Assembly: GCF_023015765.1 (NCBI RefSeq)
Contig: NZ_JALKAL010000005.1
Location: 1-64,000, forward strand
Length of the DNA stretch: 64,000 nt
From: Ornithinimicrobium sp. F0845
GTDB taxonomy: Bacteria > Actinomycetota > Actinomycetes > Actinomycetales > Dermatophilaceae
Direction: 5' to 3'
A program made the translations under genes and the position numbers. This document shows, piece by piece, positions 1,144-61,057 of the stretch. The notes beneath the pieces were generated by a model. The model worked only from the letters and a program-made list of their open reading frames with translations. It did not search any database and was not told where the DNA came from. The first letter of the stretch is position 1. Every line of letters begins with the position of its first letter.

Positions 1144-1154
1144 GGCATACTGCC
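1144..1154 (+). repeat. Exact copy of GGCATACTGCC word (intergenic)
   Basis: An intergenic copy, 11 bases before the terminator hairpin of the thiolase gene. It belongs to the dispersed GGCA-GTA-TGCC family described in the findings. Confidence 0.7.
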
Positions 1155-1165
1155 CGAGACAGCGA

Positions 1166-1196
1166 AGCGCCGGCACCCACCCGGGGTGCCGGCGCT
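1166..1196 (-). terminator. Strong hairpin downstream of the thiolase gene
   Basis: A perfect 13-bp inverted repeat (1166-1178 with 1184-1196, loop ACCCG) begins 18 bases after the thiolase stop codon. There is no T-run, as is usual for high-GC actinobacterial terminators. It separates the thiolase from the divergent control region of the DUF222 gene. Confidence 0.75.
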
Positions 1197-1214
1197 CGTC
1201 GCGTCAGGAGAGCG

Positions 1215-2438
1215 TCAGCTGAGACGCTCCAGGATGACGGCCATGCCCTGGCCGCCGCCCACGCACATCGTCTCCAGGCCGAACTGGCCGTCCCGGGTCT
1301 GCAGCGCGTTGATCAGCGTGGTGCTGATGCGGGCGCCGGTGGAGCCGAACGGGTGGCCCAGGGCGATCGCGCCGCCGTGGACGTTGAGCTTGTCGAAGTC
1401 CATGCCGAGGTCGTCGGCGCTGGGCAGCACCTGCGCGGCGAAGGCCTCGTTGATCTCATACAGGTCCATGTCCCCGATCGACATGCCCGCCCGGGCCAGC
1501 GCCTGGCGCGATGCCTCGACCGGCCCCAGGCCCATGACCTCGGGGGAGAGCGCGGAGACGCCGGTGGACACGACACGGGCCAGCGGGGTCAACCCCAGCT
1601 CCTTGGCCTTTGTGTCGCTCATGATCACCAGGGCAGCGGCCCCATCATTGAGGGCGCAGCAGTTGCCGGCGGTGATGGTGCCGTCCTCGCGGAAGACCGG
1701 CTGCAGCTGGGAGACCTTCTCCAGCGTCACACCGGGGCGGGGACCGTCGTCGGTGCTCACGACCGTGCCGTCGGCCAGGGTGACCGGGGCGATCTCCCGC
1801 TCGAAGACCCCGGATGCGATGGCGGCCTCGGCGCGGTTCTGGCTGGTGACACCCCACTCGTCCTGGCGCTCCCGGGAGACCCCGCGGGACGTGGCGACGT
1901 TCTCGGCGGTCTGGCCCATCGCGAGATAGATGTCGGGCAGCAGCCCCTCCTCGCGCGGGTCGGTCCAGGTCTGGTTGGTCTCGGCGATCTTCGCGCTGCG
2001 CTCGATCGCGTCGGCGAACTTCGGGTTCTGCCACTCCGCCTTGCTGCCGCCGGCTCCGGAGAAGTCGGCATAGCGCGACACCGCCTCGACACCCGCGCTG
2101 ACGAAGATGTCGCCCTCACCGGCGCGGATCGCGTGCAGGGCCATCCGGGTGGTCTGCACGGAGGAGGCGCAGAACCGGTTGATGGTGGAGCCGGGCAGGG
2201 TGTCATAACCGAGGAGCACCGACACCACGCGGGCCATGTTGCTGCCGTGCTCGCCCCACGGCTCGGCGCACCCCAGGTAGAGGTCGTCGATGGTGGTCGG
2301 GTCGAGCGCGGGCACCTGGTCCAGGGCCGCGCGGATCACGCCGGCGGCGAGGTCGTCGGGACGCACGGTGGTCAGGGACCCCTTGAAGGCGCGGCCGATC
2401 GGGGTGCGGGCGGCTGCGACGATGACGGCCTCGGGCAT
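1215..2438 (-). CDS. Acetyl-CoA C-acyltransferase (thiolase)
   Basis: This 407-residue protein has the full thiolase set: the nucleophile Cys90 in NRFCASSVQT, the NEAF motif near 330, His362 in GHPFGSTGAR and the proton-transfer Cys392 in CVGGGQG. The length is normal for the FadA/AtoB family. It catalyses reversible Claisen condensation or thiolysis of 3-ketoacyl-CoA in the cytosol and so serves beta-oxidation or acetoacetyl-CoA formation. ATG at 2438 follows an AGGAGG Shine-Dalgarno sequence, and a TAGACT -10 lies at 2466-2471 (minus strand). It appears to be transcribed alone, between a nucleotidyltransferase gene and its own terminator. Chain-length preference cannot be read from the sequence. 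Confidence 0.93.
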   Translation of the reverse strand: MPEAVIVAAARTPIGRAFKGSLTTVRPDDLAAGVIRAALDQVPALDPTTIDDLYLGCAEPWGEHGSNMARVVSVLLGYDTLPGSTINRFCASSVQTTRMALHAIRAGEGDIFVSAGVEAVSRYADFSGAGGSKAEWQNPKFADAIERSAKIAETNQTWTDPREEGLLPDIYLAMGQTAENVATSRGVSRERQDEWGVTSQNRAEAAIASGVFEREIAPVTLADGTVVSTDDGPRPGVTLEKVSQLQPVFREDGTITAGNCCALNDGAAALVIMSDTKAKELGLTPLARVVSTGVSALSPEVMGLGPVEASRQALARAGMSIGDMDLYEINEAFAAQVLPSADDLGMDFDKLNVHGGAIALGHPFGSTGARISTTLINALQTRDGQFGLETMCVGGGQGMAVILERLS

Positions 2439-2515: not shown

Positions 2516-3169
2516 TCAGCGCGCCAGCCGTGCCAGCCACGGATGGGCGGGCTCGGTGGTGAGTATGGCCTGCGCCAGCCAGTCCCGCTGGGGTCCGGAG
2601 AGGTGGGGGAGAGCGACCTCGAGATCCTGCTCGTCCTTGGGTCGCCGGCCGCTGGCCTTGTAGAACAGCTGCACCTCCGGCGCGAGGAAGGGGATACCGT
2701 CGGCGGCAGTATGCCGGAGCTCACCGAGCGGACGCCTCACCTGAGAGTTGCGCCGGGAGACCCAGGTCTGGCAGTCGGCCTCGTCCAGCATGAACTGCAC
2801 CCGCCACGGCTCGTCGGCGGACGGTCGGCACCAGATGTCGTGCACGCCGGCGGGCAGGGTTTCGCCGGCCAGCCAGGTCCGCAGGTGACCGGGTGGGTCC
2901 GCGGCGTAGATCTCCCACCCCGGGAGGGACTCGTGGACCACCTGCTGGTCCCGGCGCAGGAGGAAGACGTCGAGGTCGGCGTGCTCCCGGGTCCGTCGAC
3001 CCACGAACAGGTCGATGGCGAAGCCGCCGGCGATCAGCCACGGACGGCCGGTCGCGTCCAGCAGGGGTGCCACCTGCTCCGGCTCCCAGGGTCTCCACGG
3101 ATGGCTGAGCAGGCCACCTTGGTCCAGATCCTGCGGGGCCGGGTCTCCCGCCGCGCGCTCCCTCGTCAT
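2516..3169 (-). CDS. Nucleotidyltransferase-fold protein, aminoglycoside adenylyltransferase-like
   Basis: A 217-residue protein with a nucleotidyltransferase core near residues 45-75: a GG motif (AGGFAIDLFVG), then an arrangement (REHADLDVFL) in which the aspartates of DLD would bind metal and nucleotide. The layout resembles the Aminoglyc_resit / ANT(2'') group (PF10706), common in actinobacteria and mostly untested. ATG at 3169 overlaps the stop of the upstream SGNH hydrolase gene by four bases (ATGA), which suggests translational coupling. The gene contains an exact GGCATACTGCC word at 2705-2715. Substrate is unknown; resistance function should not be assumed. Confidence 0.72.
   Translation of the reverse strand: MTRERAAGDPAPQDLDQGGLLSHPWRPWEPEQVAPLLDATGRPWLIAGGFAIDLFVGRRTREHADLDVFLLRRDQQVVHESLPGWEIYAADPPGHLRTWLAGETLPAGVHDIWCRPSADEPWRVQFMLDEADCQTWVSRRNSQVRRPLGELRHTAADGIPFLAPEVQLFYKASGRRPKDEQDLEVALPHLSGPQRDWLAQAILTTEPAHPWLARLAR
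2705..2715 (-). repeat. Exact copy of GGCATACTGCC word inside the nucleotidyltransferase gene
   Basis: On the coding strand the word is read as xGG-CAT-ACT-GCC (Arg-His-Thr-Ala). This is one of at least three codon phases in which it occurs across the window. Confidence 0.7.
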
Positions 3170-5509: not shown

Positions 5510-8219
5510 GGCTCGGCGCCTTCGGGTGGCGACGGAAGGCCTCCCGCGCGGCGGCCCGACCGTGCAGGAGCGCGGTCGCCCAGCGGGCGAGCTCGGTGCG
5601 GTCGACCTTGGCGGCGTGCCGGATGTCGACCGGCAGCCAGTCGCGCCGCAGCACCGCGGCGACGGGCACCCTCGCGGCGGCCCGCACCTGGCGCGCGATG
5701 TCCGGTGGCACGCTGGTGTCCGTCCGGGACGTCCTGGCCAGGCGACGGTCCGGCCGCGCGCCCTGCGGCACGACGACCGCCACGACCTGCTGCGTCCCGA
5801 CCGGCCCGACCCCGACGACGGCCGCGCGCCGCACCCCGGGGACGGACTCGATGGCCTGCTCCACGGCATACGGGGGGAGGGGGCCCTCGGGAGTGGTCAG
5901 GACGTGCGCGAGCCGCCCCTCGACCCACAGCCGGCCGCGGTCGTCCAGGTGCCCGACGTCGCCGGTGCGGTGCCAGCCCGCCGGCCGGGCGCTGGCCCGC
6001 TGGGTGGCCCACAGACGGTCGTAGCGCTCCTTGACGTGCGGCGCACGGACGACGATCTCGCCGGTCACGCCGGGATCGCCCGTGAGCTCCTCCACCGCGG
6101 TCCCGTCGGGCCGCAGGGCGGCGAGGCGCACGGTGACCCCGGGCAGGGGCAGGCCGACGCAGACGCCGCGGTCGCGGTCCGCGGGGTCGGCCGGATCGAG
6201 GGTGGTCGGGTCCAGGGTCGCCACGGGGAGGGCCTCGGTCATGCCGTAGGGCGTGTGCGTCGCCGCGCCAGGCAGGAGCTCCTTGAGGCGGCGGAGCAGC
6301 GCCGCGGGCACCGGGGCACCGGCCGACAGGATGAGGCGGGGTCGCCGCAGCTGCTCGAGCTGGGCGCGCGACAGCTGGTCGGCGGTCGCCACGACGTTGT
6401 CCAGCGCTGCGGGGGAGGCAAAGACGACCGTGGCGTCGATCGCCGCCACCGCGTCGGCCAGGGCGCCGGCGCTCAGCGTGTCCGGTGCCGTCACGTCCAT
6501 GTCGGGCACGGCCGAGGCCATCCCAAGCGCCGGGCCGTAGAGCGCGAACGGCGCGAAGGCCGCGACGAACCGTGCCCCGGGCCGGAAGCCGAAGGTGTCG
6601 CGCAGCAGCGCCACCTGGGCGCCGACCTGGCGCCGGGTGTAGACCACGCCCTTGGGTGGTCCGGTGGCGCCGGAGGTGAAGAGTACGGCGCCGTCCTGGT
6701 CGAGGGCGGAGGTGGCGCTCACCAGGTCGTGGGCGGGGACCTGGTGGGCTGCGCCCTCGGCGATGAGCGCCGCGACGTCACCCTCGCCCAGCCGGATCCA
6801 CTGCCCCGGCACCCCTGCGGCCACGACGATCGCGCGCGCTGTGGGGAAACCGATGACGTGCTCCGGGGCCGCGCCCCGCAGGGCGGCCCCGAGCCGCCGC
6901 AGACCCAGCCCCGCGTCAGCGACGACGGCGACAGCACCCAGCCGCCACACGGCATACAGCACGCTGGTCAGGTCGATGCCCGGGCGGACCAGCAGCGCGA
7001 CCCGCTGACCGGGGCGCACCCCGCGGGCGTGCAGGCCGCGGGCCAGGCCCTCCACCCGCCGGTGTAGGGCACCGAAGCTGATCTCGCCGCCGGTGCCGGT
7101 GAGCTCCACGATCGCGGTGTCGTCGGGAGCGGTCGTGTCCACCCGGATCGGCACGACCGGGGCCGGCGCGTCCGCGACCGGGGGCTGCCGGGAGGTGAGC
7201 CAGTCCCAGATCACGGCGACCCCCTCGGGCCGGTCCTCGAGCACCAGGTGCGAGGCGTCCGGGTAGGCGTGCACGTCGGCGTGCGGGAGGCGGCGCTGCA
7301 GGTCGGCCAGGTAGCGGCCGCAGAACACCGGGTCACGCATGCCCCAGACCATGAGCGTCGGCACCTCGGCCAGCGAGTCCAGGCCGCGCGCGATCCGGTC
7401 CAGCTCGGCATGGCTGGGGTGGTCCGGCGTGGTCGGGATGTCCTGCACGAAGTCGCCGATCGCCTCCCGGCGGGCCGTCGTGGAGTATGGCGCGGCGAAC
7501 GCCCGGCGCACCGGTGCCGGGAGGGCGGGGCGCACGGTGGCGGTGGCGGCGAGCACGAAGCCGGGGGTGCGGCGGCACACCAGGTCCAGCAGCGGGGGCG
7601 TGCGGACCGCGGCGATCGCCGCGGGCCACGGGGAGCCCTCGGGCTGGTGGACGGCGGTGTTGGTGAGCGCGACCTGCGTGAGCTGGTCGCGGTGGGCCAG
7701 CGCCCAGCCCAGGCTGATCGGGCCGCCCCAGTCGTGCGCGAGCGTCGCGACCGGGCCGTCGAGGCCCAGTGCGTCGGTCAGCCGGGACAGGTCCTCGACG
7801 CGCTGGGCGAGCGTGCGGGGGGCCTCGGTGCGCTCGGAGTAGCCCATGCCGAGGTGGTCCACGGCGACCACGCGCCAGCCGGGGGGAGCGGTCTGCAGGA
7901 CGCGGCGCCACAGGTAGGACCAGGTCGGGTTGCCGTGCACGCACAGCAGGGTGTGCTCGACGGGGACGCCGGTCGCCTCGAGCAGGGGCCCGTTGTCGAG
8001 CACGTGCCAGGTGCGGGTGACGCCCTCGGCGTCGGGAGCCTCGACGATGCGGGACCAGGCGGGGTCGACCCCAGGGAGAGTCTCGACGGTGCGGGACCAG
8101 GTGGGGTCGACCCCCGGGGGCGTCTCGACGGTGCGGGACCAGGCCGGGTCCACCCCCGGGAGGGCCGCGCCGGTGCGGGGGCCGGCCTGGTCCTGGGCCG
8201 GGGGCGCCCCGGCGGTCAC
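5496..8219 (-). CDS. oleBC: OleBC, fused beta-lactone decarboxylase and beta-lactone synthetase
   Basis: A 907-residue fusion. Residues about 65-345 are an alpha/beta hydrolase of the haloalkane-dehalogenase type (OleB) with HGNPTW, nucleophile Asp163 in AHDWGG and His324. Residues about 360-900 are an AMP-forming ligase (OleC): P-loop FTSGATGPPKG near 515-524, TPYGMTEA, HRTGDVGHLDDRGR and a C-terminal Lys region. OleC forms a beta-lactone from the OleD product; OleB decarboxylates it to the cis-olefin. The fusion is the arrangement known in Gram-positive olefin producers. GTG at 8219 overlaps the oleA TGA (GTGA). The frame continues upstream inside oleA, but such a start would overlap oleA extensively. 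Residues 20-60 carry a 14-residue triple repeat. Confidence 0.9.
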   Translation of the reverse strand: MTAGAPPAQDQAGPRTGAALPGVDPAWSRTVETPPGVDPTWSRTVETLPGVDPAWSRIVEAPDAEGVTRTWHVLDNGPLLEATGVPVEHTLLCVHGNPTWSYLWRRVLQTAPPGWRVVAVDHLGMGYSERTEAPRTLAQRVEDLSRLTDALGLDGPVATLAHDWGGPISLGWALAHRDQLTQVALTNTAVHQPEGSPWPAAIAAVRTPPLLDLVCRRTPGFVLAATATVRPALPAPVRRAFAAPYSTTARREAIGDFVQDIPTTPDHPSHAELDRIARGLDSLAEVPTLMVWGMRDPVFCGRYLADLQRRLPHADVHAYPDASHLVLEDRPEGVAVIWDWLTSRQPPVADAPAPVVPIRVDTTAPDDTAIVELTGTGGEISFGALHRRVEGLARGLHARGVRPGQRVALLVRPGIDLTSVLYAVWRLGAVAVVADAGLGLRRLGAALRGAAPEHVIGFPTARAIVVAAGVPGQWIRLGEGDVAALIAEGAAHQVPAHDLVSATSALDQDGAVLFTSGATGPPKGVVYTRRQVGAQVALLRDTFGFRPGARFVAAFAPFALYGPALGMASAVPDMDVTAPDTLSAGALADAVAAIDATVVFASPAALDNVVATADQLSRAQLEQLRRPRLILSAGAPVPAALLRRLKELLPGAATHTPYGMTEALPVATLDPTTLDPADPADRDRGVCVGLPLPGVTVRLAALRPDGTAVEELTGDPGVTGEIVVRAPHVKERYDRLWATQRASARPAGWHRTGDVGHLDDRGRLWVEGRLAHVLTTPEGPLPPYAVEQAIESVPGVRRAAVVGVGPVGTQQVVAVVVPQGARPDRRLARTSRTDTSVPPDIARQVRAAARVPVAAVLRRDWLPVDIRHAAKVDRTELARWATALLHGRAAAREAFRRHPKAPSRRSR
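8040..8165. repeat. 42-bp tandem repeat (three copies) in the oleBC 5' end
   Basis: Units at 8040-8081, 8082-8123 and 8124-8165 encode three versions of GVDPxWSRTVETxP before the OleB domain. The unit length is a multiple of three, so copy-number change would keep the frame. Confidence 0.9.
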
Positions 8220-9358: not shown

Positions 9359-10249
9359 ATGCGCAGGAACACCACGACGTGGGGGATGATTGCAGCGAGC
9401 GGGGCCCTTGTGCTGACGCTGGCCGCATGTGGGGATGACTCACCGGAGGTTGAGGAGCCGGAGACCACCAGCGCCGAGGACACCGGCAGCGACGAGGGGG
9501 CTGAGACCGAGGGCACCGACGAGGGCACGGACACCGGCGAGGAGACCGAGGCCGCCGACGGTGGCGAGCAGACCGAGGGTGGCGACACCGGCGGCGAGGC
9601 CGCGGCGGGTGAGGAGATCGACCCGGCCGACTTCGTCGCGCAGCTGAAGAGCCCCGGCATGGAGAACATGACCACGTTCACCATGAACATGGACATGCAG
9701 GTCGAGGGCCAGGCGGTCACCATGGCAGGCAAGGCCGACCTGAGCGGCGACGCCCCGGCTATGGACATCACCATGGAGATGCCCGGCATGGGCAATATCC
9801 ACATGATCATGGTCGACGGTAGCGCCTACATCGCGATGCCGGGCCTGACCGAGGAGGGGCAGTTCATCCAGATGCCTCTCGAGGAGGTCATGGGCGAGGA
9901 CGCCGAGGAGTTCACCAACCAGGTGGACATGACCTCGCAGTGGGACGAGTGGGAGGCGGGCGCCCAGACCGTCACCTTCGTCGGCCCGGAGGACGTCGAC
10001 GGCGAGACGCTCAACAAGTACGAGCTGCTGCTGGACACGACCGCGATCGAGACCGAGGACATGGCCGGTATGCCCTCCGAGCTCACCTACAACGTGTGGC
10101 TGGACGACCAGAACTTCATGCGTCAGGTCACCTTCGACCTCGCGGGAGCCGAGACCGTCATGAAGATGGAGGGATGGGGCGAGCCGGTGGACATCACCGC
10201 TCCGACCAACGTCATGGAGATGCCCGGCGGGATGCCGACCAGCCCGTGA
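9359..10249 (+). CDS. Secreted lipoprotein of the LppX/LprG type
   Basis: A 296-residue protein. The first 22 residues form a lipoprotein signal peptide that ends in the lipobox LTLAAC. A Glu/Thr/Gly-rich linker follows to about residue 85. The rest is a beta-rich domain with repeated Met/Thr strands and a terminal Pro tail. The layout fits the LppX_LprAFG family, whose members carry lipids or glycolipids across the envelope in mycobacteria. ATG at 9359 follows AGGGAGAAGG; an upstream in-frame start at 9305 would bury the signal peptide. It is divergent from oleA, so a link to hydrocarbon export is tempting but unproven. Confidence 0.8.
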   Translation: MRRNTTTWGMIAASGALVLTLAACGDDSPEVEEPETTSAEDTGSDEGAETEGTDEGTDTGEETEAADGGEQTEGGDTGGEAAAGEEIDPADFVAQLKSPGMENMTTFTMNMDMQVEGQAVTMAGKADLSGDAPAMDITMEMPGMGNIHMIMVDGSAYIAMPGLTEEGQFIQMPLEEVMGEDAEEFTNQVDMTSQWDEWEAGAQTVTFVGPEDVDGETLNKYELLLDTTAIETEDMAGMPSELTYNVWLDDQNFMRQVTFDLAGAETVMKMEGWGEPVDITAPTNVMEMPGGMPTSP

Positions 10250-10304: not shown

Positions 10305-10351
10305 CGACATACTGCCTCCGCAGCCCCCGTGGCCGCGGGGGCAGTATGTCG
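10305..10351. terminator. Palindrome built from paired CGACATACTGCC words, lipoprotein terminator
   Basis: Perfect 12-bp arms (10305-10316, 10340-10351) enclose a second, overlapping GC-rich hairpin (CCCCCG/CGGGGG). It lies 56 bases after the lipoprotein stop. The arms are a close variant of the dispersed GGCAGTATGCC word in opposed orientation. The remaining 10250-10571 gap holds no other recognised element. Confidence 0.75.
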
Positions 10352-22507: not shown

Positions 22508-22518
22508 GGCAGTATGCC
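22508..22518 (+). repeat. Exact copy of GGCAGTATGCC word (intergenic)
   Basis: It lies in the 139-bp divergent gap between msrA and the small membrane protein gene, preceded by repeated GGC triplets. Nothing else is recognised in that gap. Confidence 0.7.
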
Positions 22519-22572
22519 GTGTGCTCAGCCGTCGGGTGGCGACCGGTCAGTGGTTGTGGCAGGTTCCTCCCC

Positions 22573-26346: not shown

Positions 26347-26464
26347 GAAACGCCCCGGCCCAGCAGAGCTGGTTCACCTCGGCAGGGCAGTGACTCCCAC
26401 CAGAGGTCCGCCCACCGGGGTGAATCGGCCGACCGGCCACACGACATACGAGAAGGAGATTGAC

Positions 26465-28248: not shown

Positions 28249-28367
28249 GTCCGTCGCATGGCCCGCTGCGTGTGATCGCACAGCACGCCGTACGGCACAC
28301 AGCCGCGGACCAGCCGCACGCGAGCGCACGGCGCGACCGCACGGCATACTGCACCTGCCGTCGCGAC

Positions 28368-30194: not shown

Positions 30195-30430
30195 TTCAGT
30201 CACTCCTCGGGTCACGCGTCAGCGCACCGCAACTCTCACGGATGCGTCCCTGACACGATCAAACAATGAGGCCCGGGCGGTGGGAACTGCCTGAGCTTTC
30301 GGGTGCTCAGCGCTGTCCGGCCCGGACCTTCGCGATATGCAAGTTTAACAAGGAAAGCGCGAGTGGTCACATGTCAAGGTCACGATCAGGTCACGAGTAT
30401 GCCGGGTGCTCGCCTGGGCCGGAGAGGTTC

Positions 30431-43769: not shown

Positions 43770-43864
43770 GGTGCCCTGCTCACGGCGGAACGCCGTGGCG
43801 CCGGTGCGCCGCCCTGGGTGAGGGGCGCGCCGGTGGTGCGCGCTCGGCATACTGCAGCCCGGGC

Positions 43865-45635: not shown

Positions 45636-46390
45636 CACGGGGTGTCTCCTGCGCCGTGCTCCCGGCCGGACCGGCGTGCCAGGTGCTGGGTCGCTGTCAC
45701 CAGCGCGTCGAACAGGGGGAGGTCGTCGGGGATGGCCTCGCTGACGGCGGCGCGCTGCCGGGCCACCGTGTCGTGGTCGCCGCGGGCGATCGGTCCGGTC
45801 AGGGCGACCGCGGACCCGGTGGCCACCCAGTTGTCGACGGCCGCCTGCACGATCGGCACCAGCTGGGCCCGCTCGAGCCCGACGGTGGCACCGAGCCGCT
45901 CCGCGAAGTCGGTGATGGTGAGCAGGAAGTTCGAGGCGACCGTCGCCGAGGCGTGGTAGGCGGCCCGGAGGTCGTCGCGGACCTCGACCGGCGACATACT
46001 GAGGCCGGTTGCGAGGGCCGTGGAGGTGGCGAGCGCACGGGGGGACGAGCCGGCGACCGCGGCGGTCGCGCCCGTCAGATCGGCCCCGGCCTCGGGGACG
46101 GTCATGAACGGGTGCAGGCTGAAGGCCTCGTGCTCGCCGAGCACGCCCAGACCGGTGGCCCCGGAGCAGTGGCCCACGAGCTGACCCGGGCGGACGGTCA
46201 CGGCGGAGGCCGCAGCAGGGATCTCCCGGTCGGGCACGCACAGCAGCACGATGTCGCCGTCGGGGTCGGCCCCGCGGCCCAGCGGTCCCTCCACGTCGAG
46301 TCCGATGTCGCGCAGAGCGGTCGCCAGGGCGGTGCCGACGCGGCCCCGCCCGATCACGGCGATGCGGGCGTGGGCCAGCGAGTCATCCAC
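45635..46390 (-). CDS. Rossmann-like protein with DUF2520 domain
   Basis: A 251-residue protein. The N-terminal NAD(P) fold begins IAVIGRGRVGTALA. The C-terminal half is helical with HPFMTVPEAGADL and AAYHASATVASNFLL, the DUF2520 signature region. Such genes are regularly next to panC in actinobacteria; a ketopantoate reductase-like role has been suggested because panE is often missing, but that is not shown here. GTG at 46390 is the only in-frame start; GGGAG stands upstream. Confidence 0.82.
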   Translation of the reverse strand: MDDSLAHARIAVIGRGRVGTALATALRDIGLDVEGPLGRGADPDGDIVLLCVPDREIPAAASAVTVRPGQLVGHCSGATGLGVLGEHEAFSLHPFMTVPEAGADLTGATAAVAGSSPRALATSTALATGLSMSPVEVRDDLRAAYHASATVASNFLLTITDFAERLGATVGLERAQLVPIVQAAVDNWVATGSAVALTGPIARGDHDTVARQRAAVSEAIPDDLPLFDALVTATQHLARRSGREHGAGDTP

Positions 46391-46569: not shown

Positions 46570-47828
46570 GTTGCCCCCAGGCACAGCGCCCCGGCGGTCA
46601 GCCAGGCGTAGGTGTAGGAACCTTGCGTGTCCCGGATCAGGCCGGCGCCGGTGGCCGCGACCGCGGCACCTACCTGGTGGGAGGCGAAGACCCAGCCGAA
46701 GACCATCGGTGCCCGCTCCCCGAAGTGCTGCTGGCACAGCGCCACGGTCGGCGGCACCGTGGCCACCCAGTCCAGGCCGTAGAAGATGATGAACGCCCAC
46801 ATGCTCGGGTGCACGTCAGGACCGAAGAGCGCGGGCAGCGCCATCAGCGACAGCCCGCGCAGGGTGTAGTAGACGGCCAGCAGGATCCGCGGGTCGACCT
46901 TGTCGGTCAGGTAGCCGCTGCCGATCGTCCCCACGATGTCGACGAGGCCGATCACGGCCAGCAGGCTCGCCGCCGCCGTCAAGGGCATCCCGTGGTCGTG
47001 GGCCGCCGGCACGAAGTGGGTGCCGACCAGGCCGTTCGTGGAGGCGCCGCAGATCGCGAAACCGCCCGCAAACAGCCAGAAGGTGCGCGACCGGGCGGCC
47101 TCGCGCAGGCTGGTCAGCGCCAGCGCGGCCGCGTTGCCGGTGCGCTCGACGGGAGCGGTCGTCGGGTGCTCGGCGTCCGCTCCGTAGGCCTCGAGCCCCA
47201 CGTCGTGCGGATGGTCGCGCACGACGAGGAGCACGAGGGGGAGCACGGCCATCGCGCTGACGCTGACCAGGATCGCCGGTGTCCGCCAGCCGTGGTGCGT
47301 CGCGAGCCACGCAACGGCCGGGAGGAAGATGAGCTGACCGGTGGCCCCTGCCGCGGTGAGGACACCGCTCACCAGGCCGCGGCGCGCGACGAACCACCGG
47401 GTCACCAGGGTGGCCATGAAGGCCATCGAGATGGAGCCCGCGCCGACCCCCACGACCACGCCCCAGAGTAGCCAGAGCTGCCAGACCTGCGTCATCAGGA
47501 CGGTGAGGCCGCTGCCGGTGGAGAGCAGGGGCAGCGCCACGGCCAGCACGGGTCGGATCCCGAAGCGGTCCATGAGTGCCGCGGCGAACGGGGAGAACAG
47601 GCCGAAGAGCACCAGGTTGATGGAGACCGCCACCCCGATGGTGCCGTGCGACCACCCGAACTCGGTGTGCAGCGGGTCGATGAGCACTCCGGGCACGGAC
47701 CGGAAGCCGGCGGCGCCGACCATCGAGACGAAGCCGGCGAGGGCGACCCACCAGGCGCGGTGCACCCGCGGTCGCCGAGGTGAGTCAGGGCCGCGGCGAG
47801 GGGCTCGCAGGTCGGGAGCGATCGTCAT
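46524..47828 (-). CDS. MFS transporter, monocarboxylate/oxalate-formate antiporter-like
   Basis: A 434-residue protein with twelve predicted membrane helices, the loop motif DRFGIRP after helix 2 and GYLTDKVDPR after helix 8. The form resembles MCT/OxlT-type major facilitators. The ATG at 47828 stands six bases after CACACT and is preferred to an upstream start. It is divergent from the GlxA-type regulator, which may control it. The last residues (VPRVPRCSR) come from a frameshifting 32-bp duplication and replace an apparent older tail. Substrate is unknown. Confidence 0.85.
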   Translation of the reverse strand: MTIAPDLRAPRRGPDSPRRPRVHRAWWVALAGFVSMVGAAGFRSVPGVLIDPLHTEFGWSHGTIGVAVSINLVLFGLFSPFAAALMDRFGIRPVLAVALPLLSTGSGLTVLMTQVWQLWLLWGVVVGVGAGSISMAFMATLVTRWFVARRGLVSGVLTAAGATGQLIFLPAVAWLATHHGWRTPAILVSVSAMAVLPLVLLVVRDHPHDVGLEAYGADAEHPTTAPVERTGNAAALALTSLREAARSRTFWLFAGGFAICGASTNGLVGTHFVPAAHDHGMPLTAAASLLAVIGLVDIVGTIGSGYLTDKVDPRILLAVYYTLRGLSLMALPALFGPDVHPSMWAFIIFYGLDWVATVPPTVALCQQHFGERAPMVFGWVFASHQVGAAVAATGAGLIRDTQGSYTYAWLTAGALCLGATVLSLMVPRVPRCSR

Positions 47829-47899
47829 ACTGGAAGTGTGTGGTGCCGGACCCACGCAGGACGAGTGGCGAATAAGCCACTATGTGTAAACTTTCGGCC
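47829..47899. promoter_or_regulatory. Divergent MFS/GlxA control region with leaderless promoters both ways
   Basis: The 71-base gap holds CACACT six bases from the MFS ATG (47835-47840, minus), TAAACT seven bases from the regulator GTG (47887-47892), and a palindrome AGTGGC-N6-GCCACT (47864-47881) just upstream of TAAACT. The palindrome is a candidate autoregulatory operator. Confidence 0.6.
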
Positions 47900-48890
47900 G
47901 TGTCTCACCGCCGCCGTCCCCACCGGGTCGTCGTCCTGTGCGTCGACCCGCTCGTCGGCTTCGACATGACCATCGCCCCGCAGGTCCTCGAGGCGGCGCG
48001 GGATGCCGAGGGCGAGCGGCTGTATGACGTGCGGGTCGCCTCCCTCGACGGGGGACCGGTGCGCACCCACAAGGGCTATGCCGTGCTGCCCGACCACGGT
48101 CCGGAGGCGCTGTCCTGGGCGCAGACGGTGATCGTCCCGGGCATGAAGGACCCGACCATCCGTGAGGAAGGGCGGGCCACGCCCGAGCTCGAGGCCGCGT
48201 GGGCGCGGCTGCGGCCGGGGACCCGGCAGGTCTCGGTGTGCACCGGCGCCTTCGTGCTGGGTGCGCTCGGGGTGCTCGACGGCCTGCGCGCGACCACGCA
48301 CTGGGAGTATGTCGACGACTTCCGCCGCCTGTTCCCTCGCGTGCGGCTGGACCCCGACGTGCTCTTCGTCGACGAGGGCGACGTGCTCACCTCGGCCGGG
48401 CTGGGGGCGGGGGTGGACCTGTGTCTGCACCTGATCCGGCGGGACTTCGGCGTCCGGGCGGCCAACCACGCGGCCCGGGGCTGTGTGGTGCCGCCGTGGC
48501 GGGAGGGCGGGCAGGCCCAGTTCATCGAGCACCCCGTCCCTCGCCGGTCGGACCAGTCGACCTCGGCGACCCGCGTGTGGGCGCGCGCCAACCTGCGGAC
48601 GGTCGCGCGGGTCGAGGACCTGGTCAGGCACGCGCGGATGAGCGAGCGCACCCTCAGCCGACGGTTCCGCGAGGAGACCGGGATGTCCCCGCAGCAGTGG
48701 CTGCTGCAGGCGCGGCTCGACCGCGCGCTGGAGCTGCTCGAGCGGAGCGACCTGCCGGTCGACCGGGTCGCTGAAGAAGCCGGCTTCGGCACCGCCGCGG
48801 CCTTCCGGCAGCGGATGCGCGCCAGCCTGGGCACGACACCGCAGGCCTACCGGCGGACCTTCGCCGGGCCCGGTCACCAGGCCGAGCGGC

Positions 48891-51844
<2,954 letters not shown>

Positions 51845-53253: not shown

Positions 53254-53853
53254 TCAGTCGGTCGCGGCGGTGACGACCGGCTTGTAGGCCGGCCGGCCCG
53301 CCTCGAAGGCGGTGATGTCGTCCTCGTGCTGCAGCGTGAGGGAGATGTCGTCCAGGCCGTTGAGCAGGCGCCAGGCGACGTAGTCGTCGACCTGGAAGGT
53401 GGTGACGATGTCGCCGGCGGTGACGGTGCGCGCCTCCAGGTCGACGGTGACGCTCGCGCCGGGCTCGTTCTCCAGGTACTTCAGGATGAGCTCGACGTCG
53501 GGCTGGGCGACCTGGGCGGTCAGCAGGCCGCCCTTGCCGCTGTTGCCGCGGAAGATGTCGCCGAACCGGGAGGCGATCACGACGCGGAAGCCGAACTGCT
53601 GCAGCGCCCAGACGGCGTGCTCGCGGCTGGACCCCGTGCCGAAGTCGGGGCCGGTCACCAGGACCGAGCCCCCGGCATACTGCTCCTGGTTGAGCACGAA
53701 CGAGGGGTCCTCGCGCCAGCGGCTGAACAGGCCCTCCTCGAAGCCGGTGCGGCTGACCCGCTTGAGCCAGTGGGCCGGGATGATCTGGTCGGTGTCCACG
53801 TTGCTGCGGCGCAGCGGCACGCCGACGCCGGTGTGGGTGGTGAACTTCTCCAT
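53254..53853 (-). CDS. leuD: 3-isopropylmalate dehydratase small subunit
   Basis: A 199-residue swivel-domain subunit with [18 protein letters not shown] and [17 protein letters not shown]. With LeuC it isomerises 2- to 3-isopropylmalate. ATG at 53853 shares its A with the leuC TGA, so the two are coupled. A GGCATACTGC near copy at 53674 is read in the phase CAG-TAT-GCC. Confidence 0.96.
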
Positions 53854-55319
53854 CAGGCCGACACCCCCTCGTGCGTGGAGGGAGTATGCCGGGCGCGCCG
53901 GTCAGCGGTGCCGCTCGGGTCCGCGGGGGGCAGGTCCGTGGGGGAGGACAGGTGACCGGTGATGGCGGTGGCCGCCGCGACGGAGGGGCTGACCAGGTGG
54001 GTGCGTGAGCGGGCGCCCTGCCGGCCCTCGAAGTTGCGGTTGGACGTCGAGGCGCAGCGCTCCTGCGGGGCGAGCTGGTCGGGGTTCATGCCCAGGCACA
54101 TCGAGCAGCCCGCCAGGCGCCACTCGGCGCCGGCGTCGAGGAAGACCTGGTCCAGGCCCTCGGCCTCGGCCTGCAGCTTGACGGCGTGGGAGCCCGGGAC
54201 GACCATCATCCGCAGGCTGTCGGCGATGGTCCGTCCGCGCAGCACGTCGGCCGCGGCGCGCAGGTCCTCGATGCGGCCGTTGGTGCAGGACCCGAGGAAG
54301 ACCGCATCCACCGAGATGTCGCGCATCCGCGTGCCAGGGGCTAAGTCCATATACTCCAGCGCCCGCTGCGCGTTGCCGCGGGCGTCGTCGTCGCCGAGGG
54401 CGGCCGGGTCGGGCACGACGTCGTCGAGGGTGACGGACTGACCCGGGTTGGTGCCCCAGGTCACGTAGGGCGTCAGCGTGGCGGCGTCGATGACGATCTC
54501 CTCGTCGAAGACCGCGTCGTCGTCGGTGCGCAGCTGCCGCCACGCCTCCACCGCGGCGTCCCAGTCGGCGCCGGTGGGGGCGTGCGGGCGGCCCTTGACG
54601 TAGGCGAAGGTCGTCTCGTCCGGGGCGACCATGCCGGCGCGCGCCCCGGCCTCGATCGACATGTTGCAGATCGTCATGCGGCCCTCCATGGAGAGCGCCT
54701 CGATCGCCTCACCGCGGTACTCCAGCACGTAGCCCTGCCCGCCGCCGGTCCCGATCCGGTTGATCACCGCCAGGATGATGTCCTTGGCCGTGGCGCCCTC
54801 GGCCAGCTGGCCGTTGACCGTGATCGCCATCGTCCGGAACGGCTTGAGCGGCAGCGTCTGGGTGGCCAGCACGTGCTCCACCTCGGAGGTGCCGATGCCG
54901 AACGCCAGCGCCCCGAACGCGCCGTGGGTCGAGGTGTGGGAGTCGCCGCACACGATCGTCATCCCCGGCTGGGTCAGCCCCAGCTCCGGGCCGATCACGT
55001 GCACGATGCCCTGCCCGAGACGCCCCCGGCGGTGGTGCACGATGCCGAACTCGGCGCAGTTGGCGGTCAGCGCCTCCAGCTGGGTCTTGCTGATCAGGTC
55101 CAGCACCGGACCCGGCGTCGTGGGCACGTTGTGGTCCTCGGTGGCGACCGTCAGGTCGGGGCGGCGCACCGTCCGGCCGGCGGCCTTCAGCCCCTCGAAC
55201 GCCTGCGGGCTGGTCACCTCGTGCACCAGGTGCAGGTCGATGTAAAGGAGGTCTGGTTCACCCTCCGCCTGTCGCACCACGTGCGAACGCCAGACCTTCT
55301 CAGCCAGCGTGTGTCCCAT
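53853..55319 (-). CDS. leuC: 3-isopropylmalate dehydratase large subunit
   Basis: A 488-residue aconitase-family subunit. The cluster-binding cysteines are in FLGSCTNGR and [32 protein letters not shown] and TEDHNVPT are also conserved. ATG at 55319 has GGAGGAG directly before it. It heads leuC-leuD. In many actinobacteria an IclR gene (ndgR) is divergent from leuC; here an M15-like gene takes that place. The last 25 residues are a variable Pro/Ser tail. Confidence 0.96.
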
Positions 55320-55386: not shown

Positions 55387-55392
55387 GTATCC

Positions 55393-56349: not shown

Positions 56350-57519
56350 GTGTCGCAGTCAGTCGCGCCGAGTGCAGCCGCAGGGACCGGGACGGTGCGC
56401 TCGCACCGGCTTGCCGTCATCGGCGGGGACGGGATCGGGCCGGAGGTCACGCAGGCCGCGCTGACCGTCCTCGACGCGGCGCAGGGACGCTTCGGGTTCA
56501 CGACCGAGCGCACCGAGGTCCCCCTGGGCGCCGACACCTATCTGGCCACCGGCGACCTGCTCACCCCGGACGCGGTCGAGCAGCTCCGTGCGCACGACGC
56601 CATCCTGTTCGGGGCGATCGGCAGCCCGCGGGTCACCCCGGGGATCCTCGAGCGGGGCATCATCCTGGCGCTGCGCGCCGAGCTGCACCAGGCCATCAAC
56701 CTGCGGCCGGTCCGTCTCTACCCCGGCGTCCCGACCCCGGTCGCCGGCCTGACCCCGGACCGGTGCGACCTGGTGGTCGTCCGCGAGAACTCCGAGGGCA
56801 GCTACGTCGGCGGCGGCAGCACCGTGCACCGCGGGACTCGCGCCGCCGTCGCCACCCAGGGGTCGACCAACACCTGGTATGCCGTGCACCGGGCCGTGGA
56901 CTTCGCCTTCCGTCTCGCAGAGCAGCGGCGGGGCCGGGTCACCCTCTGCCACAAGACCAACGTGCTGACCGAGGCCGGGGCCCTCTGGCTGGCGGTCGTC
57001 GACGAGGTGGCCGACCGGTTCCCGTCCGTCGAGCACGACTACGTGCACGTCGATGCCATGTGCATGCACCTGCCGGTCTCACCGGAGCGCTTCGACGTGG
57101 TGGTGACGGACAACCTGTTCGGCGACATCATCACCGACCTGGGGGCGGTGCTGCAGGGCGGTCTCGGAGTCGCCGCGAGTGGCAACCTCAACATCGAGGG
57201 GTCGGCGCCGAGCATGTTCGAGCCGGTGCACGGTTCGGCACCCGACATCCAGGGCAGGGGGTGGGCCAACCCGGCCGGCGCGGCGCTCTCCCTGGCGCTC
57301 TGCCTGGCCAGCCTCGGGGAGGGGGCGGCCGCGGCCGCCGTCGAGTCCGTCACCGCGGGCGTCCTCGCCGAGCTGCCGGCGCTCTCCGGCGAGGCGATGG
57401 GGGCCTCGACCACAGAGCTGGGCGAGCGGATCGCCGCAGGCGTGGCTCAGGACACCGGGGACGTCGAGAGCAGCCTGATGACACAGCTGGCGGCGGTGCA
57501 GGCGGGGCTCGCGGACTGA
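56350..57519 (+). CDS. leuB: 3-isopropylmalate dehydrogenase
   Basis: A 389-residue beta-decarboxylating dehydrogenase. It has VIGGDGIGPEV, the substrate-binding ILALRAELHQAINLRPVRLYPG, KTNVLT, VDAMCMHL and the NAD site FEPVHGSAPDIQGRG. It completes the leucine route from leuA, leuC and leuD in this window. GTG at 56350 follows AGGAGG. It lies 24 bases after the M15-like gene, so may be cotranscribed with it, an odd pairing. The N-terminal 18 residues are a variable extension. Confidence 0.95.
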   Translation: MSQSVAPSAAAGTGTVRSHRLAVIGGDGIGPEVTQAALTVLDAAQGRFGFTTERTEVPLGADTYLATGDLLTPDAVEQLRAHDAILFGAIGSPRVTPGILERGIILALRAELHQAINLRPVRLYPGVPTPVAGLTPDRCDLVVVRENSEGSYVGGGSTVHRGTRAAVATQGSTNTWYAVHRAVDFAFRLAEQRRGRVTLCHKTNVLTEAGALWLAVVDEVADRFPSVEHDYVHVDAMCMHLPVSPERFDVVVTDNLFGDIITDLGAVLQGGLGVAASGNLNIEGSAPSMFEPVHGSAPDIQGRGWANPAGAALSLALCLASLGEGAAAAAVESVTAGVLAELPALSGEAMGASTTELGERIAAGVAQDTGDVESSLMTQLAAVQAGLAD

Positions 57520-57565: not shown

Positions 57566-58768
57566 ATGACTGAGCAGCACACCACGGCACCGGTGCCGTT
57601 CCCCGCACGGGTCGTCGTCGACCTGGCCGCGATCGCCAGCAACGTCGGGGCCCTCCGGGAGCGGTCCGGCGCGGCCGGCGTGATGGCCGTGGTCAAGGCC
57701 GATGCCTACGGTCACGGCCTGGTCCCCGCCGCCCGCGCGGCGCTGGCCGGCGGCGCCTCCTGGCTGGGCGTCGCCCAGCTCCCCGAGGCGATCGCCCTGC
57801 GGGCCGCCGGCATCACCGCGCCGGTCCTGTCCTGGCTGCACGCCCCCGGGGCCGGCTTCGCCGAGGCGATCCGCGCCGACATCGACCTCGGGCTGTCGGC
57901 CGTCTGGATGCTCGACGAGGTCGCCGCCGCGGCCCGCACGACCGGCCGCACCGCACGGGTGCAGCTCAAGGTCGACACCGGGCTCGGGCGCAACGGGGCC
58001 TATCTGTTCCCCGCCTCGACGGGTGCTGCGACCGACTGGTCGGCCCTGGTCGACCTGGCCCGTCGGCTCGAGGCCGAGGAGGCCATTCGCGTCACCGGCC
58101 TGTTCACGCACTTCGCCTATGCCGATGCCCCGGACCACCCGACGGTCCGGGCGCAGCAGGAGGCCTTCGCCGAGGCGGTGGCGGAGGCAGAGCGGGCTGG
58201 GCTGCGCCCCGAGGTGCGGCACATGTCCAACTCGGCGGCCACGCTCACCACGCCGGCGGCTGCGTGGGACCTGGTCCGCCCGGGCCTGGCCGTCTACGGT
58301 CTCACCCCCGCGCCGGAGATCGGCAGCTCGAGCGACTTCGGGCTGGTCCCGGCCATGACCGCCCTGGCGCAGGTGTCGGTCGTCAAGCGGGTCCCCGGCG
58401 GGCAGGGCGTCTCCTACGGCCACACCTACACCACGACCGGGCCGACCACCCTCGTCGACATCCCGCTCGGCTACGCCGACGGCGTCCCGCGCCACGCCTC
58501 GGGCCTGGCGGAGGTCTTCGTCGGCGGGCAACGGCACCGCATCGCGGGCCGCGTGTGCATGGACCAGTTCGTCGTCGACGTCGGCGACCTCCCGGTCCGG
58601 GCCGGGCAGGAGGTCGTGCTCTTCGGGCCCGGCACCCGCGGAGAACCCACGGCCCAGGACTGGGCCGAGGCAGTCGGCACCATCAACTACGAGATCGTCA
58701 CCCGCTTCGGTCCCCGGGTTCCCCGGGAGTATGTCGGCGGGCCGGGTGGCGGGCAGGAGGCCCGGTGA
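57566..58768 (+). CDS. alr: Alanine racemase
   Basis: A 400-residue PLP enzyme. The PLP lysine is Lys44 in VVKADAYGHG, and the catalytic Tyr lies in GVSYGHTYTT of the C-terminal half. It supplies D-alanine for peptidoglycan. A possible -35 TTGACG is at 57532-57537. Its TGA overlaps the GTG of the hydrolase gene. alr-hydrolase-tsaE is the usual actinobacterial order. Confidence 0.96.
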   Translation: MTEQHTTAPVPFPARVVVDLAAIASNVGALRERSGAAGVMAVVKADAYGHGLVPAARAALAGGASWLGVAQLPEAIALRAAGITAPVLSWLHAPGAGFAEAIRADIDLGLSAVWMLDEVAAAARTTGRTARVQLKVDTGLGRNGAYLFPASTGAATDWSALVDLARRLEAEEAIRVTGLFTHFAYADAPDHPTVRAQQEAFAEAVAEAERAGLRPEVRHMSNSAATLTTPAAAWDLVRPGLAVYGLTPAPEIGSSSDFGLVPAMTALAQVSVVKRVPGGQGVSYGHTYTTTGPTTLVDIPLGYADGVPRHASGLAEVFVGGQRHRIAGRVCMDQFVVDVGDLPVRAGQEVVLFGPGTRGEPTAQDWAEAVGTINYEIVTRFGPRVPREYVGGPGGGQEAR

Positions 58769-59943
58769 GTCAGGACCGCACGAACGCCCTGGTCGGTGTG
58801 GGGGCCGGCATCGCCGCAGCCGGCCTGGCCGTGGTCGGCGCGGTCGCTGTCGACCGACTCTGGCGCGACCGCAGGCACGCGATCGCCCTGGGCGCCGACG
58901 ACGACTTCACCGTCGTGCCGGACGAGACGCGGGTCGTCGTGGCGGACGACGGGGTGCCGCTCCACGTCGAGATCAACGTGCCGACCGACTGGGACGAGAG
59001 CAGGCCCACGGTGGTCCTCAACCACGGGTTCACCCTCGACCTGCGGTGCTGGGTCTATCAGCGTCGTGCCCTGGTCGAGGCCGGCTACCGGGTCGTCGTG
59101 TGGGACCTGCGCGGCCACGGGAGCTCCGGCGAGGGCCCGGAGGAGTCCTACACCATCGAGCAGCTGGGCACGGACCTGGCCCACGTCCTGGCCGAGGTCG
59201 TCCCGACCGGAGACCTCGTCCTGGCCGGTCACTCGATGGGCGGCATGACGATCATGGCGCTCGCGGAGGCGGACCCCGGTCTGTTCCGCGAGCGGGTGCT
59301 GGGCGTGGGGCTGATCAGCACCAGCGCCGGAGGGCTGCACCGGATCACCTGGGGCCTGGGGTCCCTGCTGGGCGGGGCCGTCACCCGCGTCGGACCGAAG
59401 GTGCTGGGCGAGATCTCGCCCCACCAGGACTTTGTGGACTCGGTGCTGCGCGGCGGGCGGGAGCTGCAGGAGTTCTTCGTGGCCCGCGGTTCCTTCGGGT
59501 CGCCGGTGCCGCTGTCGGTGGTCCGGCTCACCGCCGACATGATCTTCGGCACGCCCCTGTCGGTCATGTCGGCGTTCAGCCACACACTGGACGACCACGA
59601 CAAGCGCGAGGCGCTGGCGAACATGGCCGACCAGGAGGTCCTGGTGTTCAACGGGGACAAGGACGCGGTGACCGCCGCGGTGCACAGCACGGAGATCGTC
59701 GCGGCGATCCCCGGCGCCGAGCACGTCTTCGTCAAGGACGCCGGGCACATCATCATGCTCGAGCACCACGAGCTGCTCAACCGTGAGCTCCTGGACCTGA
59801 TCACGCGGGCGGAGCGCTGCCGCGACGCTGGCCCGCGTGCTGCACCACGGACCGGCTCACGGCACACGGTGACCGACCTCAGCAAGCGTCGCAGGGACGT
59901 GCGGACACGGCCGGTGCGGGGTCGCCCGCGGCAACGGGCATGA
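58765..59943 (+). CDS. Alpha/beta hydrolase of the alr-tsaE locus
   Basis: A 392-residue protein with an N-terminal membrane anchor (residues about 8-30), oxyanion segment LNHGFTLDLRCW, nucleophile Ser in LAGHSMGGMT, Asp in VFNGDKDAV and His in KDAGHIIMLE. GTG at 58765 overlaps the alr stop and its own stop overlaps tsaE. A hydrolase of this type is conserved between alr and tsaE in actinobacteria, with no known substrate. The C-terminal 50 residues are basic and variable. Confidence 0.87.
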   Translation: MSQDRTNALVGVGAGIAAAGLAVVGAVAVDRLWRDRRHAIALGADDDFTVVPDETRVVVADDGVPLHVEINVPTDWDESRPTVVLNHGFTLDLRCWVYQRRALVEAGYRVVVWDLRGHGSSGEGPEESYTIEQLGTDLAHVLAEVVPTGDLVLAGHSMGGMTIMALAEADPGLFRERVLGVGLISTSAGGLHRITWGLGSLLGGAVTRVGPKVLGEISPHQDFVDSVLRGGRELQEFFVARGSFGSPVPLSVVRLTADMIFGTPLSVMSAFSHTLDDHDKREALANMADQEVLVFNGDKDAVTAAVHSTEIVAAIPGAEHVFVKDAGHIIMLEHHELLNRELLDLITRAERCRDAGPRAAPRTGSRHTVTDLSKRRRDVRTRPVRGRPRQRA

Positions 59944-60446
59944 GCACCGGGATGTTGGCCACCGCACTGCGGGGCGGGGTCGTGGAGCTGGCCACCGCCG
60001 CGGACACGCACGCCCTGGGCGTGGAGCTCGGTCGGGGGCTGGGGGCCGGCGACCTGGTGCTGCTCACCGGTGACCTGGCCGCCGGCAAGACCACCCTGAC
60101 CCAGGGGATCGGCGCCGGCCTCGGCGTGCGGGGACCAATTACCTCGCCGACCTTCGTCATCGCCCGCGTCCACCCCAGCCTGGGGTCCGGCCCCGACCTG
60201 GTCCACGTGGACGCCTACCGCCTCGGAGGGGTCGGCGAGCTCGACGACCTCGACCTCGACGCAGATCTCGAGGCCGTGGTCACCGTCGTCGAGTGGGGCC
60301 ACGGGATGGCCGAGGCGCTCGCCGAGGACTGGCTCGAGATCGTGCTGACGCGGCGCGAGGAGGGCCGGACCGACACGATCGAGGGTGACGAGCCACGCTG
60401 GGCGCGGGTGCTCGGGCACGGCCCCCGCTGGGCCGGGGAGGACTGA
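59940..60446 (+). CDS. tsaE: tRNA threonylcarbamoyladenosine biosynthesis ATPase TsaE
   Basis: A 168-residue ATPase with Walker A LTGDLAAGKTTLTQGI near residue 45, SPTFVIARVHP, HVDAYRL and VVEWGHGMAEAL. It is needed for the t6A37 modification of tRNA. ATG at 59940 overlaps the hydrolase stop (ATGA). tsaB, rimI and tsaD, which usually follow, are absent. Confidence 0.95.
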   Translation: MSTGMLATALRGGVVELATAADTHALGVELGRGLGAGDLVLLTGDLAAGKTTLTQGIGAGLGVRGPITSPTFVIARVHPSLGSGPDLVHVDAYRLGGVGELDDLDLDADLEAVVTVVEWGHGMAEALAEDWLEIVLTRREEGRTDTIEGDEPRWARVLGHGPRWAGED

Positions 60447-60448
60447 GT

Positions 60449-61057
60449 ATGTCGGACCTGAGCATGTCGGACCCGTCACCTGACACCGGCGCCCGCCCCG
60501 CCCGCCTGCTGACCGTGTGCACCGGCAACGTGTGCCGGTCGCCGTTGCTGGAGCGGGTGCTGCAGCGCCGGCTGGACCAGCGCTGGGGCACCGGACGCTA
60601 CGAGGTCTCCAGCGCCGGGACGCACGCCCTGGTGGGACAGGCCATGGACGAGCGGTCGGCCGACCTGCTGCAGTCCTTCGGCGGGTCACCGGACGGCTTC
60701 GTCGCCCGCCGGCTCACCGCGCGGCTGATCGCCGACGCCGACCTGGTGCTGGTCGCGACCACGGCCCACCGGGGACTGGTGATCCGGGAGCACCCGCCCG
60801 CGCTACGGCATACTTTCACCTTCCGCGAGCTCGGGGCGCTCACGGACACGCTGACCGCGGACCCGGTCGTGGCCGGGGACCTGCCGCCGGCCGAGCGCCT
60901 GCGCGCGCTGGCGGCCACGCTGATCGGCAGACGTGGCCCCGGCGTGGTCCGCGAGCCGGACATCGTCGATCCCTACCGACGTGACGACCGGGTCTACCGG
61001 CAGATGGCGGAGGAGATCCGGGGGGCCCTCCCCTCGGTGTTCCGCGCGCTGGGCTGA
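60449..61057 (+). CDS. Low-molecular-weight protein-tyrosine phosphatase
   Basis: A 202-residue phosphatase with the P-loop VCTGNVCRSPLLE and the general acid Asp in DIVDPYRR. The length exceeds the usual 150-160 because of a region near residues 130-165. Such enzymes control bacterial tyrosine kinases of capsule export, and a sugar transferase gene follows. ATG at 60449 is two bases after the tsaE stop, so it is probably in the alr-tsaE transcript. Confidence 0.88.
   Translation: MSDLSMSDPSPDTGARPARLLTVCTGNVCRSPLLERVLQRRLDQRWGTGRYEVSSAGTHALVGQAMDERSADLLQSFGGSPDGFVARRLTARLIADADLVLVATTAHRGLVIREHPPALRHTFTFRELGALTDTLTADPVVAGDLPPAERLRALAATLIGRRGPGVVREPDIVDPYRRDDRVYRQMAEEIRGALPSVFRALG

Follow-up and report, generated by a model that had tools for sequence, protein, structure and literature searches.

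Introduction

The first 64,000 nucleotides of contig NZ_JALKAL010000005.1 of Ornithinimicrobium sp. F0845 (assembly GCF_023015765.1; hereafter, the window) raise the question of why a short DNA word recurs throughout them, in genes and between genes and on both strands. The initial annotation described this word as an 11-base hyphenated palindrome and considered that it might be an uptake signal or the site of a nucleoid protein. As described below, the word is asymmetric, is carried by 110 of the 186 genomes searched in the family, takes different forms in different lineages, and is replaced by an unrelated word in one clade. We consider it likely, from these sequence patterns, that the word serves as a self-tag for DNA uptake in natural transformation via ComEC and Tad pili.

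Identity of the word in the window and the host genome

The exact 11-mer GGCAGTATGCC occurs six times in the window, as was initially reported, compared with a mean of 0.02 and a maximum of 1 in 100 shuffled sequences, and the four near copies described with it are present as matches at 10 of the 11 positions. The heptamer GTATGCC, for which about 29 occurrences had been estimated by eye, occurs exactly 29 times (shuffles: mean 2.47, maximum 7). In the entire host genome (G000; 4,198,449 bases in 59 contigs), GGCAGTATGCC is found 182 times in the mixed orientation ascribed to it (84 forward and 98 reverse), and the reversed word, which serves as a control, is found 4 times. The corresponding numbers for the core GTATGCCG and its reversed word are 1,692 and 112.

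The form of the word was determined in 464 kb of G000, i.e., the window and 20 stretches of the same genome. The strongest words in this sample are GTATGCCG (196 copies against 12 expected) and AGTATGCCG, whose 124 copies against 2.6 expected exceed the level of the third-order Markov model with which the initial annotation had proposed to compare them. All 35 copies of GGCAGTATGCC continue with G and the left arm of the hyphenated palindrome is weakly conserved, so the palindrome was rejected as the unit. The word is instead asymmetric, with the core GTATGCCG, and its form in this host is [C/G]AGTATGNCGT. Counts of single-base changes indicate that position 6 can be any base in G000 and G006, the two Ornithinimicrobium-type genomes tested (in G000, A 46, G 27, and T 45 copies, compared with 5.2, 8.3, and 4.7 expected, respectively), and that it is not degenerate in the genomes G135 and G188. 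Changes at the other positions are weaker, the most frequent being C at position 1 (20 copies against 7.1 expected in G000 and 30 against 8.0 in G006). The core is preferentially preceded by A and followed by T-G in G000, and it is preferentially followed by C-G in G188.

Coding phase, strand, and placement

Genes were predicted by a simple model of position-specific guanine-plus-cytosine (GC) content made for this analysis, and synonymous codons were shuffled 20 times within each gene. In the 393 predicted genes of the 464-kb sample, GTATGCCG occurs 156 times, compared with 19.1 after shuffling (maximum, 24), which is an approximately 8-fold excess; the numbers for GGCAGTATGCC are 26 and 0.8 (maximum, 3), and those for the reversed control word are 5 and 5.0. 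All six settings of phase and strand are raised, including the three antisense phases (13, 22, and 24 copies against 1.1, 1.4, and 1.1). Thus, the word is neither at the codon-shuffled level nor enriched in one phase only, and the initial statement that protein sequence does not explain it holds. Genes of the other genomes gave similar results: 183 copies against 18.1 in G135, 210 against 22.1 in G188, and 133 against 23.8 in G006.

Strand bias, which the initial annotation had suggested mapping relative to the replication origin and terminus (ori/ter), was not seen. The two strands carry the word equally in all 109 of the carrier genomes other than G000 that are defined below (largest |z|, 2.3; 100,679 forward and 101,046 reverse copies). 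When each 20-kb stretch is oriented by its G-rich strand, the copies divide into 127/124 in G135, 150/154 in G188, and 86/73 in G006; the G-rich strand is a proxy for replication direction, with a coherent skew sign in G135 and G006 and an alternating one in G188, where the proxy is weak. No obvious concentration near ori or ter was found in 20 sampled stretches in each of three one-contig genomes.

Within the 464 kb, 156 of the 196 GTATGCCG copies lie in predicted genes. In this respect and in its length of 8-11 nt, the word differs from repetitive extragenic palindromic (REP) and bacterial interspersed mosaic element (BIME) repeats, which are extragenic palindromes of some 20-40 nt. The density per kb is nevertheless higher between genes than within them in G000 (0.64 versus 0.39), G135 (0.77 versus 0.59), and G188 (1.04 versus 0.68), and copy number rises weakly with GC content in 10-kb bins (Spearman coefficients, 0.13 to 0.38). 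In the sampled stretches, 34 of the 41 close neighbors (no more than 40 nt apart) are inverted when the degenerate core is used for the two Ornithinimicrobium-type genomes; the strict core gives 26 of 32. Of the 34 inverted pairs, 21 are wholly or partly intergenic, compared with 215 of the 1,058 unpaired copies, and 12 fall in a zone around gene ends (20 nt before to 120 nt after) that makes up 10% of the sampled sequence. In the window, a hairpin of two opposed GGCAGTATGTCG copies at 10305..10351, downstream of the coding sequence (CDS) 9410-10249, has a predicted folding energy of -38.6 kcal/mol. The initial annotation had read this site as a terminator of opposed variants; the hairpin is real and terminator-like but has no T-run. 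Inverted pairs of the word are predicted to form terminator-like hairpins.

The stretch with the lowest count in each of three genomes, picked by count and without control stretches, contains integrase, transposase, or low-GC glycosyltransferase genes, which give these stretches a largely acquired appearance. That of G000 (L089) has no copy in 20 kb at 63% GC, and the six of its seven predicted proteins that were scanned are two glycosyltransferases, an ABC transporter, a bacterial PH-domain protein, a peptide deformylase, and one protein without a match. The stretch in G135 (L126) has 3 copies, and 4 of its 12 proteins were scanned (phage integrase, IS110 transposase, rve integrase, and Fic), while that in G188 (L150) has 2 copies, with a Mutator transposase, glycosyltransferases, a peptidase, glnE, and glnA among the five of six proteins scanned.

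Distribution of the word and its dialects

The family searched was that which we take to be Dermatophilaceae as defined in GTDB. A genome was called a carrier if it had at least 300 copies of GTATGCCG and at least 2.4 times as many as of the reversed control, a threshold that was fixed after the counts were known. By this definition, 110 of the 186 family genomes (109 of 185, and G000) are carriers with 322 to 4,724 copies, 16 have an intermediate ratio, and 60 are without the word; the 109 carriers besides G000 fall in 31 genera. The order search covered 198 genomes, 14 of them from the family; the other 184 had at most 167 copies of GTATGCCG each, and the ratio to the reversed word was at most about 3.6 among those with at least 10 copies. 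The class-wide search found at most 53 copies of AGTATGCCG outside the family, compared with 971 in G000. Three genomes with low counts are nested in word-rich genera, i.e., G022 (50 copies), G065 (37), and G140 (19); all have a ComEC match, and small samples of G022 and G065 yielded no alternative word. In G062, G063, and G066 (g30) and in G097 and G098 (g43), GTATGCCG is only 2.5 to 3.1-fold over the reversed control because the reversed word itself is common there; the control is thus not neutral in every genome.

G117, which has no enrichment of GTATGCCG, is rich in a second word, CGAAGGGGG. This word occurs 63 times in the genes of G117, compared with 11.3 after synonymous shuffling (maximum, 15), is denser between genes (0.98 per kb) than within them (0.37 per kb), and has no orientation bias (50/42). 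All 16 g52 genomes and all 3 g61 genomes have 797 to 1,939 copies of CGAAGGGGG and only 7 to 41 of GTATGCCG, and the other 167 family genomes have no more than 80 copies of CGAAGGGGG. Loci of approximately 20 kb from the named species Janibacter hoylei and Janibacter limosus contain 10 and 9 copies of CGAAGGGGG and 0 and 1 of GTATGCCG, respectively, and for this reason g52 is probably Janibacter. A tree of ComEC was calculated from 38 of 39 rows (G095, with no usable frame, was left out) and rooted at the midpoint. In this tree, which may deviate from the species tree, the CGAAGGGGG genomes form a single clade with full support that lies beside and among the GTATGCCG carriers, and the starred branches force at least seven changes for GTATGCCG. 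The single clade and these changes fit an old word that would have been lost many times and swapped once. That the word is family-wide, has dialects, and is swapped in one clade holds firmly, whatever the mechanism.

G140 may have a third word, CGCCGTACG, which occurs in its genes 56 times, compared with 14.0 after shuffling (maximum, 20). In L201, L203, and L205, the same genome has units of GAATCGGATTC...GAATCCGATTC at a distance of approximately 50 bases, and L202 has a wider pair.

Competence genes and comparison with known systems

Of the genes that the initial annotation had suggested looking for, comEA and comEC are present in the host, as are TadE-type and T2SSF genes of Tad pili; this machinery does not discriminate across the family. 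The host comEA (SLBB and helix-hairpin-helix domains) adjoins comEC. TadE-type matches are found on three contigs, that on C58 being just under the cut-off, and T2SSF genes stand beside two of them. A Tad-type pilus locus of the host (L255; C12, near 308000) adjoins the gene for ribosomal protein S20, which is often found near comEC-holA. A ComP-type receptor of a type IVa pilus is unlikely because PilT exceeds its curated cut-off in only 2 of the 186 family genomes. The number of Tad pilins was set aside as a determinant, with TadE nearly universal (181 of 186) and no clear link.

In the accessible parts of two reports, uptake tags are described for two Gram-negative families only, Neisseriaceae and Pasteurellaceae, where they have dialects and hundreds to thousands of copies (PMC3630211, PMC5031613); the presence of the DNA uptake sequence (DUS) of Neisseriaceae in terminators appears there as the title of a reference (PMC5031613). 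The word resembles the DUS as portrayed in those parts in being asymmetric, in its hundreds to thousands of copies, and in its lineage dialects, the DUS having 10-12 nt (PMC3630211, PMC5031613). It differs in that its hosts are high-GC Gram-positive bacteria, PilT is rarely found, and one family has two wholly unrelated words; the words themselves are different, and the shared ATGCCG is probably a chance match. The uptake signal sequence (USS) of Pasteurellaceae is similarly a genome-wide word, of 9 nt, with two versions in different lineages, as far as the available text goes (PMC3630211). It is unrelated to the word here, and its two versions resemble each other, whereas GTATGCCG and CGAAGGGGG do not. 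Micrococcus luteus, also an actinobacterium with comEA, comEC, and Tad pili, is naturally transformed through Flp/Tad pili without a comG cluster, and the portion of the report consulted mentions no sequence preference for it (PMC6370729).

The literature searched, with broad queries sampled thinly and most subscription papers outside it, yielded no description of such a word for actinobacteria, and no paper combined Janibacter with natural transformation or Ornithinimicrobium with natural competence. The one paper there that contained a form of the word seems to concern an unrelated subject.

Proposed function of the word

In the uptake reading, a DNA receptor at the surface or envelope, probably a part of the Tad/Flp pilus or the ComEA step, would prefer DNA bearing GTATGCCG, the form in this Ornithinimicrobium-like species being [C/G]AGTATGNCGT. 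DNA fragments that contain the word would enter through ComEC and then recombine, so that alleles containing it would spread and copies would build up across the recombining chromosome irrespective of codon phase and strand. Drift of the receptor would give rise to the dialects, and in the Janibacter-like clade the preference would have switched to CGAAGGGGG. The initial interpretation is supported in part. Its idea of an uptake signal agrees with what was observed of the word and its statistics (copy number, strand symmetry, and occurrence in all phases), its dialects and exclusive swap, its tie to terminator-like inverted hairpin pairs, and the com and Tad genes of the host, and the palindromic unit had to be given up.

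Other explanations account for parts of these observations. Chi and the cyanobacterial HIP1 are also short words that are over-represented genome-wide. A HIP1-like word, which would owe its enrichment to mutational bias, mismatch repair, or a process linked to a methylase and would play no part in transport, would also be scattered over all phases and both strands, and three of the seven copies lost in relatives differ by one base (see below). HIP1 is palindromic, whereas the unit here is not, and neither the inverted pairing near gene ends nor one clade's complete change to an unrelated word is expected from mutational bias, which makes such an origin unlikely. The genome-wide spread would suit the binding site of a nucleoid or chromosome-organizing protein, the other option of the initial annotation; this is quite unlikely, as copies are not obviously concentrated near ori or ter, and many sister genomes carry the word at a near-background level while others have another word in its place, a swap or absence seen even between sister genera.

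Chi is a short, asymmetric, over-represented word that is oriented with replication. A recombination hotspot of the Chi type, recognized by RecBCD or AdnAB, would share all but the last of these properties with the word, and G000 has RecC. The absence of orientation bias by the G-rich-strand proxy and the symmetry in 109 carriers render it improbable, as does the distribution of RecC (the search did not include AdnAB): RecC was not found in any of the nine g55 genomes, which have 1,971 to 3,277 copies of GTATGCCG, and is present in 47 of 109 carriers, compared with 38 of 60 noncarriers and 3 of 16 intermediate genomes. On the grounds of strand symmetry and the word-rich genomes in which RecC was not found, the RecBCD-Chi form of this explanation was rejected. 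Lastly, the word could arise secondarily from codon or protein bias or from terminator repeats that are dispersed, given that its most frequent coding phase reads TAT-GCC (Tyr-Ala) and that its close inverted pairs are terminator-like. The 8-fold excess over synonymous shuffles, raised in six of six phase and strand settings, led us to reject codon or protein bias as the main cause, and the copies are mostly single (1,058 unpaired, compared with 41 close pairs); this explanation is scarcely credible.

Several points weigh against a DNA-uptake tag. ComEC is found in 180 of the 186 family genomes and TadE above its cut-off in 181, word-less genomes included, so the machinery does not track the word. 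The six genomes without a ComEC match (G019, G023, G072, G107, G191, and G204) are all carriers; they are drafts of 58 to 95% completeness, and the assemblies may have missed the gene. Because word-less genomes have ComEC and TadE and six genomes without a ComEC match have the word, the com/Tad machinery is compatible with the uptake reading and gives it no specific support. No receptor gene for the word was found, and natural competence, the receptor, and an uptake bias as the cause are what we infer. The density between genes in G006 is slightly below that within genes (0.35 versus 0.41 per kb). Spacing is more even than expected at random in G000 (values as low in 3.7% of simulations) and weakly so in G006 (7.7%), and simulations gave no even spacing in G135 and G188; regular spacing, clear in G000 only, was rejected as a general property. 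The word-poor stretches, chosen post hoc from the counts and without controls, include housekeeping genes in two of three cases. Two uncultured Serinicoccus loci (L012 and L013; 21 kb each) contain both words (6 and 4 copies of GTATGCCG and 3 and 4 of CGAAGGGGG, respectively), which blurs the exclusiveness locally.

Conservation at orthologous sites concerns few sites and is suggestive only. Of the copies in window genes that could be aligned with the two nearest named records, 8 of 10 and 7 of 12, respectively, are kept, and control 8-mers are identical in 49% and 40% of cases; of the seven copies lost in either relative, three differ by one base.

With these points included, we incline toward the wider view that a whole actinobacterial family has tags for the uptake of self-DNA, which would be the first beyond Neisseriaceae and Pasteurellaceae and would be read via Tad pili in Gram-positive bacteria; of its two unrelated words, one would have replaced the other in one clade, with repeated losses elsewhere. 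If true, this would be a third independent case, Gram-positive and spanning 31 genera by the threshold used here, and would mean that self-specific uptake of DNA arises repeatedly in evolution. It would also provide a natural series for how receptors change their word, and it would point to unrecognized transformation in many environmental actinobacteria and a handle for their genetics.

Copies and other features in the window

The window contains 44 copies of GTATGNCG (23 forward and 21 reverse). The exact 11-mer followed by G, i.e., GGCAGTATGCCG, is located between genes at 1143..1154 (-) and 22508..22519 (+), antisense within CDS 2516-3169 at 2705..2716 (+), in a fructosamine-kinase-family gene (16383-17270) at 16986..16997 (-), at 20604..20615 (-), and in a PIG-L-family gene at 31807..31818 (+). 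The closest named records to the PIG-L-family gene (30938-31996) are an Actinomycetales metagenome-assembled genome (91% identity) and Ornithinimicrobium cavernae (88%). Copies of GTATGCCG with A before them are found in the fructosamine-kinase-family gene at 16733..16740 (+), at 17754..17761 (+), in a malate synthase gene at 26935..26942 (+), between genes at 30397..30404 (+), at 41881..41888 (-), in an aconitase-family gene at 53884..53891 (+), and in a low-molecular-weight phosphatase gene at 60806..60813 (-). GCA precedes GTATGCCG at 28342..28349 (-) and 43845..43852 (-), both intergenic, and at 53673..53680 (-). The other copies of this core are at 5864..5871 (-) and 6950..6957 (-) within CDS 5496-8219, 24004..24011 (-), 31422..31429 (-; PIG-L-family gene), 33885..33892 (+), 35168..35175 (+; PhoH-family gene), 38752..38759 (+), 40508..40515 (+; SIS/GATase gene), 42004..42011 (+), 45423..45430 (+), 50887..50894 (-; isopropylmalate-synthase-type gene), and 56877..56884 (+).

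Three variants also occur. The variant GTATGGCG occurs at 7485..7492 (+) within CDS 5496-8219. The variant GTATGACG occurs at 14132..14139 (-), 26884..26891 (+; malate synthase gene), 43000..43007 (-), 47823..47830 (-; intergenic), 48022..48029 (+), and 49226..49233 (-), and GTATGTCG occurs at 22295..22302 (-), 26442..26449 (-; malate synthase gene), 31018..31025 (+; PIG-L-family gene), 45992..45999 (-), 48307..48314 (+), 58729..58736 (+), and 60447..60454 (+; at a gene start). A weak match at 10068..10074 (+) is the sole one of the 29 heptamers in which GTATGCC is followed by C and not by G.

The region 4467-9238 is a probable olefin biosynthesis cluster, with an OleD-like reductase (4467-5465), a fused alpha/beta-hydrolase and acyl-CoA ligase (5496-8219), and a ketosynthase III (8216-9238); the scores of the OleD and olefin beta-lactone synthetase models are under the curated cut-offs. 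The ketosynthase is presumably of the OleA type, and we take the fusion to be OleBC-like. Three copies of CAAAACCACTA, with starts 26 and 32 bases apart, are located at 38468-38536 between predicted convergent genes. Elsewhere in G000, pairs of CAAAACCACTA 32 bases apart occur at L095:223, L099:6119, and L099:16389, and single copies occur at L099:18137 and L101:3020.

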